This document shows positions 16,261 to 26,441 of a stretch of DNA of 33,804 nucleotides, piece after piece. A program made the position numbers and the translations under genes. Origin of the DNA: Ectocarpus siliculosus. Lineage: Eukaryota; Sar; Phaeophyceae; Ectocarpales; Ectocarpaceae. The notes below the pieces were generated by a model. It ran no database searches, was not told the origin of the DNA, and saw only the letters and a program-made list of their open reading frames with translations. Numbering within the stretch: position 1 is the first letter of the stretch; the number at the start of each line of letters is the position of its first letter. The DNA lies in contig FN648644.1 of NCBI GenBank assembly GCA_000310025.1, positions 62,941-96,744 of the forward strand. Direction: 5' to 3'.

Positions 16261-17623
16261 CAACATGATGCAAACGACGGACACGCTGGTGCTCGGTGTT
16301 CTGAGATCTCTTCGATTCTTGTGGCTCGCTCCGGGCAATCGACACTTGGCACGGCAGTAAGCACGTGGGCACGCTTACATCGATGCGCGAGACGTGGGAC
16401 CCTTTCCAACACGCATCCTGCTGCTTGCGGAGTTGTGCGACTTTGTTTCGTTTAGACTGCTAGAAGAGCTCCGAAACCTTGCGCAGTACGATATGGTGGT
16501 GTGTAAATAGACATGCATAGCATCTAGGATTTTTTTTCATGGAAGTAAGAGGGTTATAGGACACTCAAAGGGGGGAAACGGGGAAACGTACCGAGCGCTT
16601 TGTCTGCACTACCTTTCTTGTAGTTGGGCATTTGGTGTAGACGTGTAGACGGAAGTTACGTCCCGGGTGTGCCTGTCGCACATAGAATTAGACTCTTCTC
16701 GGTCCTGTCGAGGATATTTCGGAACTTGAACGACGTCTACATAGAATAACATACGCTACGGGCGAAGCGAGGAGAGGTACTCACCCACAGACCGCACAAA
16801 GAAAAAATAATATGACTGATGTGTTGAAGTCTGAAGTCTTGGGAGTGAGGTTCGTCTTCCGCAAATCACGAAACGGTCCGGGTCACCCATCCCGTCAGCG
16901 AGCTAAACCGGAGATAGGCGCCCCGCCAACCCGTCCCTGGCCATCAAAAAGTGCATGTATGCTAGGCGTGATCCACCATGTATGTGTGCTGCTGTGGGGG
17001 ACACGGACGGTGTAAAAAGGTGTTTTGTTATTTTATCGTTCAACCTTTTCCGATGTACAGCGCATGCGATAGCTTAAGTTAGGCCAAAAAGCCTCGGTGC
17101 GTGTATCTGCGTAGAGCATCAGGCGTGTTGACACTATTCTTGACGCTGGGTATAATTAAAAAAATGCAGTTGTACCCGGAACTAGATGGTGCATTTCGCA
17201 GACACCATGACGGTACCGACGCATGTTACAGGCCATGAAAGACATTACGGCCAAAAACAATTTTCGACTCTGTACATGGATGCATCATGTACAGCAGTGG
17301 ACATAGCAGTATTGAATACCTAGAGTCCGAACTGTACAACTTGGACCCGCAGGATACAGGATACAGATATCCTCAAAGGCCCTGGCCGGTGCGTCCAACA
17401 TACAGCCGTGAGGACAGGGAGACTGGCACTCAAATGGATGGAATGGAACGAAAGATGCTCCTTACATACGTTCAGAGTGCATAGAAATCACTCCGCCAGA
17501 GAGATAAGAGCAGTCGATTGCGTGATGCAAACGAAACGTACAAGCAATTTTCCAATTTTACGGCAGTACACAACTGGGTAGCGACTCCGAACTGGCTGGG
17601 GCTTTTTCTTCAGTGGTTTGGGT
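16261..17623. other. Intergenic region between ALG6 and H2B (convergent ends)
   Basis: It contains the 3' untranslated region of ALG6 at its left and the end of the H2B transcript at its right. No gene is recognised. A 65-codon ATG frame at 17287-17484 is rich in Tyr, Glu and Arg but has no recognisable motif and no supporting splice context. I see no RNA gene and no repeat copy shared with the rest of the window. Confidence 0.5.
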
Positions 17624-17640
17624 GGTGTTAAGTAAACACC
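17624..17640 (-). promoter_or_regulatory. Histone-type 3' stem-loop of H2B mRNA
   Basis: On the minus strand, 90 nt after the H2B stop, lies GGTGTT-TACTT-AACACC: a 6-bp stem with a 5-nt loop, followed immediately by ACCCA. The 15 bases before it (AGGTTGATTTTGCTG as read on plus, 17641-17655) are identical to those before the H2A stem-loop. A purine-rich GAAGAAAAAG lies about 11 nt further downstream, where the histone downstream element sits in animal genes. The canonical animal form has a 4-nt loop. The role in 3'-end processing is inferred. Confidence 0.8.
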
Positions 17641-17729
17641 AGGTTGATTTTGCTGGTTGTAGGAGCCGAAGCGAGGCACCCTACCGACAGACGTGGCCCC
17701 TGAAGAACAGAGCGCACCTCGCTTGCTGA

Positions 17730-18080
17730 TTAGGACGAGGTGAACTTGGTGACGGCCTTGGTGCCCTCGGAAACGGCGTGCTTGGCGAGCTCTCCGGGAA
17801 GCATGAGGCGCACGGCGGTCTGGACCTCGCGGGATGATAGGGTCGCCTTCTTGTTGTAGCGGGTGAGCTTGCCGGACTCGCCGGCCACGCGCTCGAACAC
17901 GTCGTTGATGAACGAGTTCATGATGGACATGCCGCGCTTGGAGATACCTGTGTCGGGGTGGACCTGCTTAAGCACCTTGTAGATGTACGACGAGTACGAC
18001 TCGGTCCTCTTGTTGGTCCTCTTCTTGTCGCCGGCCTTCTTGGGCGCCTTGGCGGACTTCTTGGAGGGGGTCTTGGCCAT
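17730..18080 (-). CDS. H2B: Histone H2B
   Basis: Core nucleosomal histone, 116 aa, pairing with H2A. The Lys/Ala/Pro-rich N-terminal tail (1-26) is followed by the histone fold. Recognisable H2B signatures are [19 protein letters not shown] (27-45), [19 protein letters not shown] (47-65), [16 protein letters not shown] (77-92) and the C-terminal [21 protein letters not shown] region (96-116). The penultimate part holds the AVTK lysine that H2B ubiquitination targets in other eukaryotes. The start is the ATG at 18080, beginning MAKTPSKK. The frame runs further upstream to another ATG at 18176, but that extension lacks H2B character and would be 5' untranslated. Intronless. Divergently transcribed from H2A and expected to be S-phase regulated with it. 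Confidence 0.98.
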
Positions 18081-18469
18081 CTTTATGCTGAGTGGTGTTG
18101 GGTGAGAAGGGTAGAGAGAGAGTTGTGGCAGAGAGCGGGAGAGCCGAGAGAGATCGCTCTCTCTAGAAGATAGCACGCTCGGGAGGCGTTATCGGCGTTG
18201 TTCCTTTTCGTCCACCGCTATTGTCTTCGCCAATCATTGACCTAGACTCAGAATGTGAAGACAACAACAACAACAACAACAAGACTTGCACCAATCACAG
18301 AGCAGAACGGCGCGGCCTGATAGTATTTTTGAAAATGGAGCTCCGCCGCACGAAGGATTCTGCCGTTGCCCGTTGCCTCTTGCCTGTCGAGACTATCCCC
18401 GCCCCACCTCCCACAACTCAAAACATCCCCCCTCTGTCTGTGTACTTCATCACCAACTCAACAACAACC
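18081..18469. promoter_or_regulatory. Bidirectional H2B/H2A promoter region
   Basis: The 389 bases between the two histone start codons must hold both promoters and leaders. Two CCAATCA boxes are visible in the same orientation (18230-18236 and 18291-18297), a motif typical of histone promoters. A (CAA)n stretch lies between them at about 18261-18281. On the H2B side there is a CT/GA-rich leader (18110-18175). I see no convincing TATA box for either gene. Shared control of the two genes is inferred from the arrangement. Confidence 0.75.
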
Positions 18470-18838
18470 ATGTCCGGAAAGGGAAAGGGAGGCCGCGGAA
18501 AGAAGTCGACCACCAGGTCGGCCAAGGCTGGACTGCAGTTCCCTGTGGGCCGCGTTGGCCGGTTCCTCAAGAAGGGCAAGTACGCGTCCCGCGTGGGAGC
18601 TGGAGCTCCGGTGTACCTGGCCGCCGTGCTGGAGTACCTGACCGCCGAGGTGCTTGAGCTGGCCGGCAACGCCGCCCGCGACAACAAGAAGGCCCGCATC
18701 ATCCCCCGCCACATCCAGCTGGCCGTCCGCAACGACGAGGAGCTGAACAAGCTTCTCGGAGAGGTGACGATCGCGTCCGGCGGTGTGCTGCCCAACATCC
18801 ACGCCGTGCTCCTCCCCAAGAAGACCGTGAAGAAGTAA
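18470..18838 (+). CDS. H2A: Histone H2A (canonical)
   Basis: Core nucleosomal histone, 122 aa. The tail [21 protein letters not shown] leads into the signature [17 protein letters not shown] (20-36). The histone fold includes [29 protein letters not shown] (residues about 43-71), and the docking region has [24 protein letters not shown]. It ends in LLPKKTVKK with no SQE/D tail, so it is not H2A.X, and it lacks the distinctive H2A.Z insertions. The start is the ATG at 18470 (ACAACCATGTCC). The frame continues open upstream to 18221, but that stretch is leader and promoter. Intronless. Its stop is 85 nt before the shared stem-loop module. Confidence 0.98.
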
Positions 18839-18923
18839 ACGTCTCCTGCCTGCTGAGCTTCATCCTGCATCTTCAACGTTGTCCGCTTAGTTGTTTCAAC
18901 GAGCGTCACAGCAAAATCAACCT

Positions 18924-18940
18924 GGTGTTTATTCAACACC
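18924..18940 (+). promoter_or_regulatory. Histone-type 3' stem-loop of H2A mRNA
   Basis: GGTGTT-TATTC-AACACC, a 6-bp stem with a 5-nt loop, 85 nt after the H2A stop. It is preceded by CAGCAAAATCAACCT (18909-18923), identical to the H2B module, and followed by ACCCACCAAACAAACGAAAA. The stem is identical to that after H2B and the loops differ at two of five bases. The surrounding order (stem beginning GG and ending CC, then ACCCA) matches the metazoan histone stem-loop context. Recognition by an SLBP-like protein is an inference. Confidence 0.82.
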
Positions 18941-19474
18941 ACCCACCAAACAAACGAAAATTGGCGCTACTGCTTGCTGCTGTACACACATGTTGTACTA
19001 CATGTATGACAAGAGTGTCGAAGTGTAGTCTTCGAACGTCCAACGACGACATTCATTGAAGGCAACGCAGAGGACTCGGAAGAGGTCGCTGCCTCTGCTT
19101 GGTGGATGACAAACTTTCTGTGAGCGAGGGAGGGAGGTACGTTGTGTAGATGTCTTGCCTCTTCGCGCGTTGCAACGAAACTAAATACCACATTCTTTCC
19201 CTTTCAAACACAACGTGAAGTTGTAGGGTGCTTTACAATCCGAGAGGTAGGCAAATCTGGGTCCAATGCTTTAAACCGTACCCAATGGTGCAGTCTACAT
19301 TTTAGATCCTGATCATAGAGCAGCAGCTTAAAATATTAATGTTACCAGCAAGCTGTCTTCGATGCCACAGTTTAGTTAAGGATACTGGGGCTCGTAAGAG
19401 ACGAATCGATGCAAAAGGGTCCAGAATATTACGTTGTTCTGCGTACACAGCAGTTCTCAACCAGCTGAATCTCC

Positions 19475-21486: not shown

Positions 21487-24400
21487 TCAAACTCCTAACA
21501 GCATGCCACGGGCGCGGAGAAACTCCGACGGGTTTAGCCCTTTCGTAAAAATGTCCGCTTTCTGAAGCGACGTCGATATTTGCTTCACGTCTACGACTCC
21601 ATCAGCTACCAGCGACCTTACGTGGTGAAACTTTACGTCAATGTGCTTCGTCCTTGGGGTGATACGGAAGCTGCGAGTTGATTTTAGAGCTCCCGAGTTG
21701 TCCTCCCACACCACGGTTGCTTCTTCCTGAGTCTGATTTATGGTGTCCAGCAGGTGGCGGAAGTACTTGATGATGTTGCACCCCTTCGACAAAGCCACGA
21801 ACTCTGCTTCAACGGAAGAGGTCGCCACCACCGTCTGCTTGGATGATGTCCATTCCACCGGTCCACCAGCGAAGTACAACAAGACTCCCGTGGTGGAGTA
21901 GCCCTTGTCTAGGTCGCCTGCAAAATCTGAGTCGACAAACGCCGTAATGACGTTTCCATCTCCGGCGTCCTCGCCGTAGCGTACACCGATTGATATCGTA
22001 CCTTTCAGGTACCTGAGTACGCGTTTGAGTTTCTGCATCGCCCTCGGACCTGGTTTCGCCATACTCCGCGTCAGAACCATCACGGAGTGTGTAATGTCGG
22101 GCCTTGTGCACCTGCTGAGATATAGAAGCGAGCCTGTGGCGGAGCGGAAATATGTGGTATCCTCCGCTGACAGCACCTCGTCCTCCAAGACGGACACCGG
22201 TCCAGCCTCAGACGGAGATGTCGTCGGACGCGCGTCGGCCATGCCGAACTTGTCCAACACGGCGTTGGTATACGCTTCCTGTTCCAAAAGAATTGTCCCT
22301 GCGGCTCTGTCTCGGTTGATTCCCATACCGAGTAGGAATCTGGCTCCTCCCAGGTCCACCGTTTCGAAACGCTCATTCAGCTGATCGACTATGCTCAGTA
22401 CTTTGTTCTCACCCTCCCCGGTCAGCAGAATGTCATCCACATAAACGAGAAGGAGCACATCTCCGTCGTCCAGGATGTACAAGCACGGCTCAGCGGTGCT
22501 CTCAACAAATCCGATCTTCAGGAGAAAGTCGTGCAGAGTGCCCCACCAGCCTTTTGGGGAAGAACGCAACCCGTAAAGCCATGCTCTGAGCTTCCAGACT
22601 TGCCTGGCTCTCCCGCTGTCGCACGAGAATCCTTCCGGGGGAATGACGTACACTGGTTTCGATCTCGGTTCCATCCTCGCGTGGAGGAACGCCGTCCTGA
22701 TGTCGGCTTGGCGAAGAACAAGTCCATTCTTGGCTGCATGCGCAACTATCAGATGGACGGCTTGGAGAGACGCTACCGGTGCAGCATTGTCGGTTCCGGT
22801 CTCAGCTTCGTAAAATCCTTGCACTACGATTCTCGATTTCTGTCGAACAGCGATGCCGGCCTCGTTGTACTTCCATTTGTAGATGTATTTTGACGGGATG
22901 ATTTGAGCATCGCACGGGGGGTCGACCCACTCATAAACGTCGTGGTCTAGCAAGGAGCGATTCTCCTCCTCCATGCTTTTCATCCATCCAACAGCATCTG
23001 GTCCGTTGACCGCTGCGCGGTAGTTCGGTGGATCGGCGGGCATGTATCCTAGTTGGCCAGGTATCCCTTGACCAAGGTTCCCAATCTCACCTCCGATCAC
23101 CAGCGCGTATTCCGTTTCGAACACCTGCTCCGTCGTAAACAGGTTCAGACGGTCCCGCGGCCTTGTCGTACGACCGCTTTTGCGCACCGCGGGCGGTTCT
23201 TCGTCCGGTCCGTCGTTCGTTTCTGCCAGTTCTGGTTCCTCGTCTTTTGTCTCGGCCCCAGTAGTGATGATGCCGGGCTGGAAAATCTGGCCTTGTTCGG
23301 GAAATGGGTCAGACCCGTGCATGGGGCGAGCGACGTCGCGGGCATCTACCTCGCGGAATGACACTTCAGCAGAGTTTGTAATTTTGAGTGGTTCCGCCGG
23401 GTCCCATAGCCGCCACGTCTTGCTGGTTGTATTGTATCCCACCATGTAATACTTCTTGGCCCTGGCAGAAAACTTATCGTTTCGCGAGCGAGCTTCTACG
23501 TGTTTAAACGCTACAGACCCCCACTCATGCATGTGCTTCAAGCTGCCGAGTGGTTTGTCCTCCCAAACCTCAAGTGGTGCTTTGCCGTCCAGGACGTCAG
23601 TAGGTGTGCGGTTCTTGATGTAAATGGCGGCCTTCGCGGCTTCCGCCCACAGTTGACGCGGTAGGTGCGGAGCTCCAAGCATGAGACTACGTGCTGCACC
23701 GATGACGGTCCCGAAACCGCGTTCGGCGACAGCATTCCCTTGAGGGACGTACGGGGGGCTTGTCTCCACAGCGATCCCGAAGGACCGACACATTGCTAAG
23801 AACCTACCCTTGAAGTCGGCTGCGCCATCGCAATGGATTTTCCCGATGCAGATGCCCTCGGGATCGGCGACTTCTTTAATCAGTGTTTCGAGCGCGTCAG
23901 TCACTTCATCCTTTGTCTTCAGGGGAATGCCCCACCGCATGCGAGATTTATCGTCGGTGAACATTTCGATATGCTGACATCCGCTATACGATGGCACACC
24001 ATGTTTCCCCCACAGGTCGAGATGCATAAGCATCATTCGCGTCAGTGAACGGGCGCGGCCAACCGGGGGGTGACTCGCCTTCTTGCTTTTAGATACATCG
24101 CACACTTCGCAGTCACCTGGTTGAATGTTGGTGATGAACTTGATGCCGGTGCCTTCCTTATCCGAGAGCTGCTTCAGGGCGCGCGCAATGCAATGTCCCA
24201 TCCTCCGGTGCCAGACACCGGCATCGGTATCGGCACGGAAAACCAGCGGAGAACTAGGCAGGTCGAGACTCAGGTCGTCCAGGATGAGATTCACGACGTA
24301 CATTCGAGGCACCTCTGCTGTTGATATGGGGAAAGACAGGTTCCGGCTTCGCAGGGCCGGAGGTGCCGAAAGTAGATCCGTCTTCACCCCTTTCTCATCC

Positions 24401-26145
24401 AACGCTCCGACAGAAAATATGTTTGCTCCAAGGTCCCGCACAAGCAGAACCTCCAATTCTATCGGGACGGGTTGACCTTTGTCATTCTTGAGTTTGAACT
24501 TCAGCGTACCTTTCTTGGTGGCGCTGGATGTGCCGCACGAACCCTTGATGCGGACGTCGCAGTCAACCAAGTCGACTACATGTTGTGAGACTGGGCTCTC
24601 GCCGCTTACCATGTGTCCCGAAGCGGCGGTGTCGATGAACACCCTCGTATTCTCGGCGGGCGCTGTCTTGTCCACTGCACGAAAAACGTTGGTGTACGCG
24701 ACCAGCTCCTCATGCTGTATCGCGGCAGGCGGGTCCTTTTCCTGCTCGTAGGAGGCAGCAGGCTCCTCGGTTTCCTCTGCTGTGGCAGGCGCAATCGGCA
24801 CCTGCAATGGGACAGCACGTTCCAACAATGGTAGCGAAGCTGTGGCAGGCGCAGCCAACACCTGCCCTACATTGACATCGGACGCCTCCTCAGGGGTCGA
24901 TGCAGCAGGCGCAAACGGCACCTGCTCTGGATCGCCTATGGCGATGTCGAACGATTCCAGCGTGAGGTCGACCTCGCGCGCGTGCGTGAGCCACGCCTGT
25001 GTCGTGGCTTCCGCGGTCGTGTTGACCTGCTGCTGCTGCTGCGGTTGCTGTTGTTCACGGTTCGAAAACCGCGTGGCATTGGAGGCGCGAAGCGGGCAGT
25101 TCGTCCAGGTGTGTTCCGTAGAATTGTGACAGTAACTGCATAAGCCGTCCCTGTCGTACTCGCGTCTTTGCTGTGAGTGGTTTGGCCGTCCAGAGGACCG
25201 GTTGTCGGAAGACGCACCACCAGCTCCGTTGCCAGAAGTTGCGCCGCCATGGTTCTGGTCGTTGCTGTTGTTCCCCCTCGACGACCCGTTGTTACGGTTC
25301 GACGAGTTGTTCCAGCTGCCACGTCCGCGTCCACCGCGCTGCGCGCGTCCACGACCATGATGACCGCCGCCCTTACGGAAAGAACGCGCTCCGCCGTGTG
25401 TGACGGTATTCAGCGCACGGCTGCTGCTTCCGGACGTGTTCTTCGAGGCAACTTTACCACGAATGTGCATCGCGTGGAACGAAGTGGCTCGGTCGGCGAC
25501 CTCCTCGAAGGACAAGACGCTCCCAGCAGCCTGGCCGCACAGCAGTCCTGTCTTGAACTCTTTGTAGTGGTCGTCCGGCAGTGCTTTCAGGAAAGCGAAC
25601 GTCTTTCGGTGGTCAGCCACCGTGTCGTTATACACGGCTAGCTCCGTGCAGATCCGGCGCATGTCTTGAATAACTTTGGCCGGATCAAAGTCGTGGTCCG
25701 CAGTAACTGCCAAAGATATGAACTTCTCGTGCAGCTCCTGCGTACGGTATACCCCAGCGGCCTGGTACTTTCGTTCTAGGGCGAGGAATGCTCCACGACC
25801 GTCTCCGTTGTAGGAAGACCCGATAGGCGCGTATGCCTGCACAGTCTGCGAGGCCGCGCTCTGGTAGCCCCCGGTTTCAGATGTGGCGAGCATCAGCCGG
25901 GTAAAGACCTGTCCGTTTTTGTCCTGGTGGTATCCTTCCAGGGCAGTTTGGTATGCCAAAGTCTGGTTTGGCGTAGCGCTTGGTCCAGGATCCGTAGGGG
26001 CTTTCTCCACTCCCAACAGAACCTTGTGCAGCTTGTCCTCCATGAATAAGGAGGTCTGCAGAGTTCGCCAGCCAACGTAGTCGCCTGGGTCGCCACTGAA
26101 CTTGGCGAATCCTCTTCGGATCTCGCCTGACGAGCCGGTAGCCAT
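21487..26145 (-). CDS. Copia gag-pol polyprotein
   Basis: 1552 aa, uninterrupted. Gag (from about residue 10) has the copia gag fold region, an RGG/Asn-rich basic stretch (about 255-315) and one zinc knuckle at C336, C339, H345, C350 with spacing CX2CX5HX4C, one residue longer than the usual CX2CX4HX4C. The protease active site is FIDTAASGH (Asp505). The integrase has an HHCC finger (H646, H651, C679, C682) and catalytic D710, D773, E808. RT has QADIRTAFLHA (Asp1148) and YVDD (Asp1237/1238). RNase H has FVDSDFAGD (Asp1405), a SVEAE acidic site, and WEDN (Asp1482). The start is the first in-frame ATG (26145). The frame is open further upstream into the LTR to a GTG, with no ATG there. Gag and pol share one frame, so the Gag:Pol ratio must be set by other means. 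Confidence 0.97.
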   Translation of the reverse strand: MATGSSGEIRRGFAKFSGDPGDYVGWRTLQTSLFMEDKLHKVLLGVEKAPTDPGPSATPNQTLAYQTALEGYHQDKNGQVFTRLMLATSETGGYQSAASQTVQAYAPIGSSYNGDGRGAFLALERKYQAAGVYRTQELHEKFISLAVTADHDFDPAKVIQDMRRICTELAVYNDTVADHRKTFAFLKALPDDHYKEFKTGLLCGQAAGSVLSFEEVADRATSFHAMHIRGKVASKNTSGSSSRALNTVTHGGARSFRKGGGHHGRGRAQRGGRGRGSWNNSSNRNNGSSRGNNSNDQNHGGATSGNGAGGASSDNRSSGRPNHSQQRREYDRDGLCSYCHNSTEHTWTNCPLRASNATRFSNREQQQPQQQQQVNTTAEATTQAWLTHAREVDLTLESFDIAIGDPEQVPFAPAASTPEEASDVNVGQVLAAPATASLPLLERAVPLQVPIAPATAEETEEPAASYEQEKDPPAAIQHEELVAYTNVFRAVDKTAPAENTRVFIDTAASGHMVSGESPVSQHVVDLVDCDVRIKGSCGTSSATKKGTLKFKLKNDKGQPVPIELEVLLVRDLGANIFSVGALDEKGVKTDLLSAPPALRSRNLSFPISTAEVPRMYVVNLILDDLSLDLPSSPLVFRADTDAGVWHRRMGHCIARALKQLSDKEGTGIKFITNIQPGDCEVCDVSKSKKASHPPVGRARSLTRMMLMHLDLWGKHGVPSYSGCQHIEMFTDDKSRMRWGIPLKTKDEVTDALETLIKEVADPEGICIGKIHCDGAADFKGRFLAMCRSFGIAVETSPPYVPQGNAVAERGFGTVIGAARSLMLGAPHLPRQLWAEAAKAAIYIKNRTPTDVLDGKAPLEVWEDKPLGSLKHMHEWGSVAFKHVEARSRNDKFSARAKKYYMVGYNTTSKTWRLWDPAEPLKITNSAEVSFREVDARDVARPMHGSDPFPEQGQIFQPGIITTGAETKDEEPELAETNDGPDEEPPAVRKSGRTTRPRDRLNLFTTEQVFETEYALVIGGEIGNLGQGIPGQLGYMPADPPNYRAAVNGPDAVGWMKSMEEENRSLLDHDVYEWVDPPCDAQIIPSKYIYKWKYNEAGIAVRQKSRIVVQGFYEAETGTDNAAPVASLQAVHLIVAHAAKNGLVLRQADIRTAFLHARMEPRSKPVYVIPPEGFSCDSGRARQVWKLRAWLYGLRSSPKGWWGTLHDFLLKIGFVESTAEPCLYILDDGDVLLLVYVDDILLTGEGENKVLSIVDQLNERFETVDLGGARFLLGMGINRDRAAGTILLEQEAYTNAVLDKFGMADARPTTSPSEAGPVSVLEDEVLSAEDTTYFRSATGSLLYLSRCTRPDITHSVMVLTRSMAKPGPRAMQKLKRVLRYLKGTISIGVRYGEDAGDGNVITAFVDSDFAGDLDKGYSTTGVLLYFAGGPVEWTSSKQTVVATSSVEAEFVALSKGCNIIKYFRHLLDTINQTQEEATVVWEDNSGALKSTRSFRITPRTKHIDVKFHHVRSLVADGVVDVKQISTSLQKADIFTKGLNPSEFLRARGMLLGV

Positions 26146-26189
26146 GCTTACCGACGCTTGTGACTCTGGTGTGCTAGCTCGAGCAACTC

Positions 26190-26203
26190 GAGGCTCATAA
26201 ACC
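26190..26203 (-). promoter_or_regulatory. Primer-binding site, anticodon-arm (half-tRNA) type
   Basis: Directly inside the 5' LTR the minus strand reads GGTTTATGAGCCTC. Its complement, GGCTCATAAACC, matches the anticodon stem-loop of eukaryotic initiator tRNA-Met (GGCUCAUAACCC in yeast) with one mismatch, CAU being the anticodon. It does not match a tRNA 3' acceptor end (TGGT...). Priming by a tRNA cut in the anticodon loop is known for Drosophila copia and yeast Ty5. The same mechanism is inferred here. Confidence 0.75.
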
Positions 26204-26441
26204 TGTTGAGGCAACAGCACTGTCACTGCAGTTGCTGTACAGCTATTCCTTCAGCTGTGGCTACAAAGTAGCTGGCATGTGATGCGAGGTTAGGTAGGCA
26301 AACACACAGAGTGATATTATTATCCACACAGACGCCCAAGCTGTCTTCACCTGACGGTTACAGACTTGGCAACGCCTTCACAATACCGCATAAACCCATG
26401 CAGTAGAATAGAGTCGTTCTTGTACCGCACTTACTCCAACA
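26204..26441 (-). repeat. 5' LTR of the copia element
   Basis: 238 bp, identical by eye to the other LTR. In the direction of transcription it starts at 26441 (TGTTGGAG) and ends at 26204 (CTCAACA). The gag-pol frame remains open into its last 23 bases but without an ATG. It should contain the element's promoter and polyadenylation signals, which I could not pinpoint. Confidence 0.97.

Follow-up and report, generated by a model that had tools for sequence, protein, structure and literature searches.

The H2B and H2A genes in a 33,804-nucleotide (nt) stretch of the Ectocarpus siliculosus genome (contig FN648644.1, positions 62,941 to 96,744, here called the window) are each followed by a conserved module composed of a hairpin with a 5-nt loop and a downstream element. 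The module is found on 31 histone genes of this brown alga, and the same genome holds an SLBP RNA-binding domain and a gene for a U7-like small nuclear RNA (snRNA) complementary to the downstream element. We read the modules, with a probability of roughly 80%, as signals for 3′ processing in replication-dependent histone pre-mRNAs, which would be cut by SLBP and a U7-type small nuclear ribonucleoprotein (snRNP).

Hairpin modules of the histone genes

The genome (189.5 Mb, 492 contigs) was scanned for the module using the pattern read backwards as a control. The pattern CTGGTGTTTNNTNAACACCACC gave 31 exact matches and one further match with one mismatch, compared with 0 for the reversed control at up to one mismatch, so the modules of the window are not a product of chance. 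All 31 exact matches lie 3′ of histone stop codons (H3, 5; H4, 8; H2B, 6; H2A, 7; H1, 5), with genes typed from PF00125 matches or by reading the sequence. The span from stop codon to stem is 55 to 157 nt in 28 of these genes, a range that omits an H3 gene (C241:297795), a frame-broken H3 gene (C241:280273) and the H2A gene on contig C84. The looser pattern GGTGTTN5AACACC was found at 81 genome sites versus 10 in the control; about 50 of its sites stand apart from histone modules, many of them with near-palindromic loops and a repeat-like appearance.

Since CTGGTGTTTNNTNAACACCACC fixes the stem and its flanks, its own matches cannot prove invariance, and the independent test is made gene by gene. 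Every replication-type core gene found independently, by PF00125 or by a search for H4, has the exact module (26/26: H3, 5; H4, 8; H2B, 6; H2A, 7; the frame-broken H3 included). The PF00125 genome search returned 27 matches, 18 of which are the module-bearing H3, H2B and H2A genes, and the H4 search returned eight full-length genes, each of which has the module, and a partial match of 26 residues on contig C3. H1 had no independent gene search, and its count of five is thus not a fraction. The other nine PF00125 matches comprise H2A.Z (C27:139827), an H2A variant (C11:5168370, perhaps H2A.N), three divergent H3-type genes matched piecewise (C476; two pieces each on C11 and C7), a protein resembling NF-Y (C105) and an H2A copy with a frameshift (C241:298492). 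GGTGTTN5AACACC is absent from the loci of these nine matches, bar one that belongs to a neighbouring H3, and in particular from those of the five variant genes (H2A.Z, the three divergent H3-type genes and the further H2A variant). In a looser downstream scan, three of the PF00125 loci without the module together gave five GG...CC hairpins, all lacking histone-type flanks. The module therefore follows the canonical rather than the replacement histones in the 26 core genes and five variants, with a single exception in the H2A gene on C84.

That exception bears on the H2A variants, of which H2A.E is described as adjoining H2B and H2A.O as having an SQDY motif; in the same account H2A.O is counted as replication-independent and H2A.E may serve as the replication-coupled H2A (PMC12459048, as far as its available text goes). 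By these criteria the H2A of the window is of the H2A.E type, having the 15-residue stretch and the H2B neighbour and no SQDY tail. Six H2A.E-type genes stand beside H2B and all six have the module, which favours a replication-coupled role for H2A.E as judged from sequence. The lone H2A gene on C84 (C84:157159-160380) is of the H2A.O type: it has an SQDY tail, its reading frame is interrupted, and it keeps both the hairpin and the purine element, making H2A.O a mixed case. An H2A complement of this kind is indicative of a brown alga or a close sister group. An AATAAA lies just upstream of its hairpin, so this gene may have two kinds of 3′ end. If the histone mRNAs lack poly(A), RNA-seq on poly(A)-selected RNA would under-count H2A.E, a point that would bear on its tissue-specific label.

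The hairpin is built on a 6-base-pair stem that is preceded by T and followed by A in all 31 modules, giving a 7-base-pair form that folds at -7.4 kcal/mol (ViennaRNA). The loop is TACTC in 18 modules, TATTC in six, TCCTC in four and a singleton in the remaining three, and when loops of 3-6 nt were scanned in the first histone loci, 5 nt was the only length found. On the 3′ side the stem is followed by ACCCA in 22/31 and by ACC in 31/31, where the pattern itself demands the stem and ACC; on the 5′ side CAACCT precedes it in 19/31, with CCT in 29 and ACT in two. Past the stem, at +13 to +21, lies a further block, a purine element with the consensus AAAGAAAAA and G at +16 in 25/31, in the position that the histone downstream element (HDE) takes in animals. 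Farther on, C is found at +26 in 22/31 and at +27 in 18/31.

In the window (Table 1), the stem starts 89 nt past the H2B stop codon and 85 nt past that of H2A, and the H2A downstream element GAAAATTGGC deviates from the consensus and is offset by about 3 nt. A preliminary description of the window had noted both modules, and its 15-mer, GGTGTT-N5-AACACC, ACCCA and the two loops are borne out by the sequence, as is its spacing of 85 nt for H2A; the 90 nt given for H2B measures 89. The stem comes to 7 base pairs with the flanking T and A. The extended upstream box it proposed holds in part, as a conserved flank of about 6 nt instead of 15; identity over the 15-mer CAGCAAAATCAACCT is confined to the H2B and H2A of the window. 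U7 was cited there for animals only, and the downstream element was overlooked. As the purine elements form part of the module and are wholly or partly left out of its interval 17611..18960, that interval is too short.

Table 1. Histone genes of the window and the parts of their 3′ modules, in window coordinates.
Feature	Position	Strand	Basis or remark
H2B gene	17730..18080	(-)	intronless open reading frame, 116 amino acids + stop; PF00125 match C150:80745-81020(-)
H2B stop codon	17730-17732	(-)	sequence
H2B hairpin 5′ flank CAGCAAAATCAACCT	17641..17655	(-)	sequence
H2B hairpin GGTGTT-TACTT-AACACC	17624..17640	(-)	7 base pairs with T17641 and A17623
ACCCA 3′ of H2B stem	17619..17623	(-)	predicted cleavage region, by inference from animals
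H2B downstream purine element GAAGAAAAAGCC, HDE-like	17600..17611	(-)	predicted duplex with U7-like RNA, -10.4 kcal/mol
H2A gene	18470..18838	(+)	intronless, 122 amino acids + stop; PF00125 match
H2A hairpin 5′ flank CAGCAAAATCAACCT	18909..18923	(+)	sequence
H2A hairpin GGTGTT-TATTC-AACACC	18924..18940	(+)	7 base pairs with T18923 and A18941
ACCCA 3′ of H2A stem	18941..18945	(+)	predicted cleavage region, by inference from animals
H2A downstream element GAAAATTGGC, HDE-like	18956..18965	(+)	predicted duplex with U7-like RNA, -8.1 kcal/mol

The likeness among the modules might be no more than a functionless by-product of histone clusters that recently duplicated or underwent gene conversion. 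An inverted duplication of H3, H1 and H4 genes at C241:278000-300000, in which one of the H3 copies runs over more than one frame, has near-identical modules, and the two 15-mers of the window are identical. Against this, 28 of the 31 modules are distinct over -25 to +30 and are spread over five histone types, the flanks diverge while the stem, ACC and the purine block hold, and downstream of the decayed H2A copy (C241:298492) this hairpin is missing. We therefore rejected a duplication artefact and regard this explanation as barely credible.

Several further observations were made in the course of these scans. A stretch on contig C179 (C179:17500-18820, about 1110-1240 of that locus) carries a tandem row of four hairpins of the histone type, of which three are altered, with an HDE-like block after them; it resembles H4 3′ ends (93% over 45 nt with one of them, L060). 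The locus showed no reading frame for a histone, and its nearest upstream open reading frame has ankyrin-like repeats. A hairpin scan of a viral contig collection gave four matches with no histone sequence in the 700 nt upstream, which were taken as chance, and H4 and H2B against the viral contigs gave 53 and 20 pattern matches, respectively, with no relative among them. The window also has a 1579-amino-acid open reading frame at 21487-26226 (-), which by eye resembles a copia-type retrotransposon polyprotein.

SLBP domain and U7-like snRNA gene

An SLBP RNA-binding domain is encoded on contig C9, where PF15247 matches at C9:192207-192368(-) with 51.9 bits and, in a second exon, at C9:191369-191479(-) with 36.5 bits (cut-off 27). 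Manual splicing at GT-AG sites gave a gene model of three exons with a 70-residue domain, which matches PDB entries 4tux, which we take to be Drosophila SLBP, with E 3.3e-21 and 4l8r, a human SLBP chain, with E 1.8e-18. In the alignment, the TPNK motif (human 171-174) and the arginine of human position 181 are kept in the algal domain. The stem-loop base G7 of the human complex is presumably the second G of the stem. It is this G7 that SLBP arginine 181 is described as contacting (PMC10388802, in its available text). Among eight candidates in public sequence, six more proteins have an SLBP domain 56-71% identical to that of the alga. Two of the checks that the preliminary description had called for were made, a comparison of the regions 3′ of core histone stops in the same genome and a search for an SLBP RNA-binding domain; with the module on 26/26 replication-type genes and the domain found, its main inference of a stem-loop histone end with a 5-nt loop is supported.

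The candidate for a U7-type RNA was found by way of a promoter element. The U2 and U5 genes share the element TTGGCGYAGNYCAAA, which has 77 genome sites versus two in the control. We read 65 of these sites, in 57 loci, the other 12 being at 11 U2/U5 loci and one weaker U2 match. Rfam RNAs behind the element number 20 (U1, 5; U4, 1; U3, 3; U2, 6; U5, 5), and the RNA starts at +72 to +75 from the first base of the element in 18 of the 20, with two U2 genes at 82. The element looks like the snRNA promoter element of this lineage. At least two multi-copy RNA families without an Rfam match at the gathering score also lie behind it, sharing "ttggctggcac" (L087-L128).

One element (C2:4921641-4921655(-)) precedes a single-copy gene of about 70 nt at C2:4921582-4921513(-), with a predicted RNA start at +73. 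From this start the RNA reads GGCAAUUUUUCUUUU, followed by AAUUUGUCGAG and the hairpin GUGUCCCGCCCCGGUUACCCGGGCGCUGAGGACAC, with both RNA ends predicted, and the predicted 5′ end reads GGCAAUUUUU. The Sm site AAUUUGUCG agrees with that of U7, AAUUUGUCU (terminal CU), at 8/9 positions, including the C at position 8. A 3′ stem-loop follows the Sm site; the 70-nt fold has a z of -3.4, with 1/200 shuffles as good, and also pairs part of the 5′ end with the Sm region.

Complementarity was measured by duplexing the first 15 nt of the RNA with positions +5 to +34 of the 31 module genes. The mean duplex energy is -9.8 kcal/mol (range -5.0 to -15.2), whereas shuffled 5′ ends average -5.3 (SD, standard deviation, 0.87), with 0/200 as low; shuffled gene regions gave -4.7, the reversed 5′ end -5.7 and the next 30 nt downstream -4.7. 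With z -6.1 against its own shuffles, the U7-like RNA ranks first of the 46 different 5′ ends that follow the element, the runner-up being at -2.4. The C-rich positions +26/+27 face the 5′ GG of the RNA, consistent with the predicted start, and one H3 gene has 14 contiguous paired bases.

This complementarity would be accidental if the histone ends were SLBP-dependent and U7-independent, with the U7-like RNA being some other small snRNA and a protein or the general cleavage factors recognizing the purine element. Such a system has a parallel in Caenorhabditis elegans, whose histone mRNAs are reported to end 3-6 nt past the hairpin, with AATCC at the position of the putative U7 site (PMC1924863, available part), and it would agree with the failure of the U7-like RNA to match the Rfam U7 model and with the G at its Sm position 9. 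It does not account for a pairing position that is near fixed across the 31 genes (SD 0.95 nt), for a longest contiguous pairing that averages 8.8 versus 6.4 in shuffles (0/300 shuffles above 7.2), or for an Sm core, AAUUUGUC, that adjoins the complementary 5′ end and is followed by a hairpin. We consider U7-independent processing unlikely.

Two direct searches for U7 gave other candidates. The Rfam U7 search of the genome had four weak matches (best E 0.12), one of which, L048, was by eye without a U7-type Sm site and hairpin. The pattern TTTCTTTN{0,25}AATTTNTCTNG gave six matches versus two in the control and was rejected, the snRNA element being absent from the upstream 200 nt of all six; its core, TTGGCG, lies at other distances in two of them, and one of the matches, L071, can fold a hairpin after an Sm-like site.

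Proposed 3′-end processing

On the animal model of cleavage by SLBP, U7 snRNP and CPSF73 (PMC7026596, available text), SLBP would bind the 7-base-pair hairpin with its 5-nt loop, and the 5′ end of the U7-type snRNP would pair with the purine element 13-21 nt past the stem. Together they would position CPSF73 for one cut between the hairpin and the purine element, near ACCCA, leaving an mRNA that ends just past the hairpin in place of poly(A). Expression of the U7-like RNA, an Lsm10/Lsm11 ring and S-phase coupling are inferred parts of this proposal.

A hairpin could also act as a stability or translation element within ordinary polyadenylated histone mRNAs and not mark a processing site, and some replication-dependent histone genes of animals are described as also yielding polyadenylated mRNAs (PMC3661734, in part). 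The purine block at a set distance past ACCCA, the SLBP domain and the U7-like RNA instead make up a whole processing system, and we hold a purely regulatory hairpin to be quite improbable.

Several results weigh against processing by SLBP and a U7-type snRNP. The stem sequence is constant across the 31 modules and thus allows no covariation test, and the exact nine letters of AAAGAAAAA are found in only 3/31 genes. In an Rfam scan of the window hairpins, the H2A hairpin scored 15.4 bits with RF00032 (18919-18964), missing the gathering score of 34, and the H2B hairpin was not listed up to E 10. RF00066, the Rfam U7 model, gave no match to the U7-like RNA up to E 10, and the gene was not listed by the direct U7 search of the genome, in which 65 of 16,682 candidates were scored. 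The Sm site departs from the full U7 consensus in having G instead of U at position 9, where U is described as almost invariant (PMC7026596, in its available text). Among the other 5′ ends, the GC-rich L136 reaches a mean of -9.65, with scattered positions (SD 4.9 nt). Moving the RNA start two bases later brings the mean to -5.9, near the shuffles, and the complementarity result hence depends heavily on the promoter-based prediction of that start. Neither the RF00032 nor the RF00066 cut-off is reached, the loop is 5 nt long, and G takes the place of U at Sm position 9; the hairpin and the RNA are therefore not formal members of these families, and we name the RNA U7-like.

Comparison with known systems

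Reportedly, a 2008 survey covered SLBP and stem-loops in protozoa. Outside animals, histone stem-loops are described for "some protozoa" and Perkinsus, with no U7 RNA named for them in the available part of that source (PMC6723414). For brown algae, an ancestral histone order of H4, H1, H3, H2B, H2A has been proposed (PMC7784034, available text), and the words "stem-loop," "polyadenyl," "hairpin" and "SLBP" have 0 occurrences in the main text of PMC7784034 and PMC12459048. A literature search, mostly without subscription papers, found no report of brown-algal histone stem-loops or U7, and no U7-type RNA outside animals was found in a search whose returns were in part mostly off-topic.

The U7 snRNP has been called metazoan-specific (PMC7026596, in the text available). 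We think it somewhat more likely than not that U7-guided cleavage is no animal invention and that a U7 snRNP was present near the eukaryotic root, in the ancestor that animals share with stramenopiles, to be lost elsewhere or to go unseen there because RNA models trained on animals miss it. If this is true, the U7 branch of histone processing moves back towards the eukaryotic root, which suggests that machinery described as animal-only would be much older. The hairpin, downstream element, SLBP domain and U7-like RNA of one genome supply exact sequences for testing an ancient U7.

The algal system resembles the metazoan histone 3′ end in its hairpin past the stop codon with a 6-base-pair stem that starts with GG, its ACCCA-type flank and its downstream purine element, as well as in its intronless clustered genes, its SLBP domain with TPNK and a small snRNA whose sequence complements the purine element. 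It differs in the loop, which has 5 nt in the 31 genes instead of the metazoan 4 nt, and in the use of a single stem sequence for all genes; the algal stem is closed by U-A, whereas in the human minimal site the stem is described as preceded by two adenines and followed by one (PMC10388802, in part). Like animal U7 snRNA, whose 5′ end of about 15 nt is described as pairing with the downstream element ahead of an Sm core and a 3′ stem-loop (PMC7026596, available text), the algal RNA has a complementary 5′ end, the Sm core AAUUUGUC and a 3′ stem-loop; it departs from animal U7 in the G at Sm position 9 and in a 3′ stem sequence that differs from the Rfam model. Histone stem-loops are already known in some protists, and the hairpin with SLBP found here joins them with an unusual loop; what surprises in this system is the U7-like RNA.

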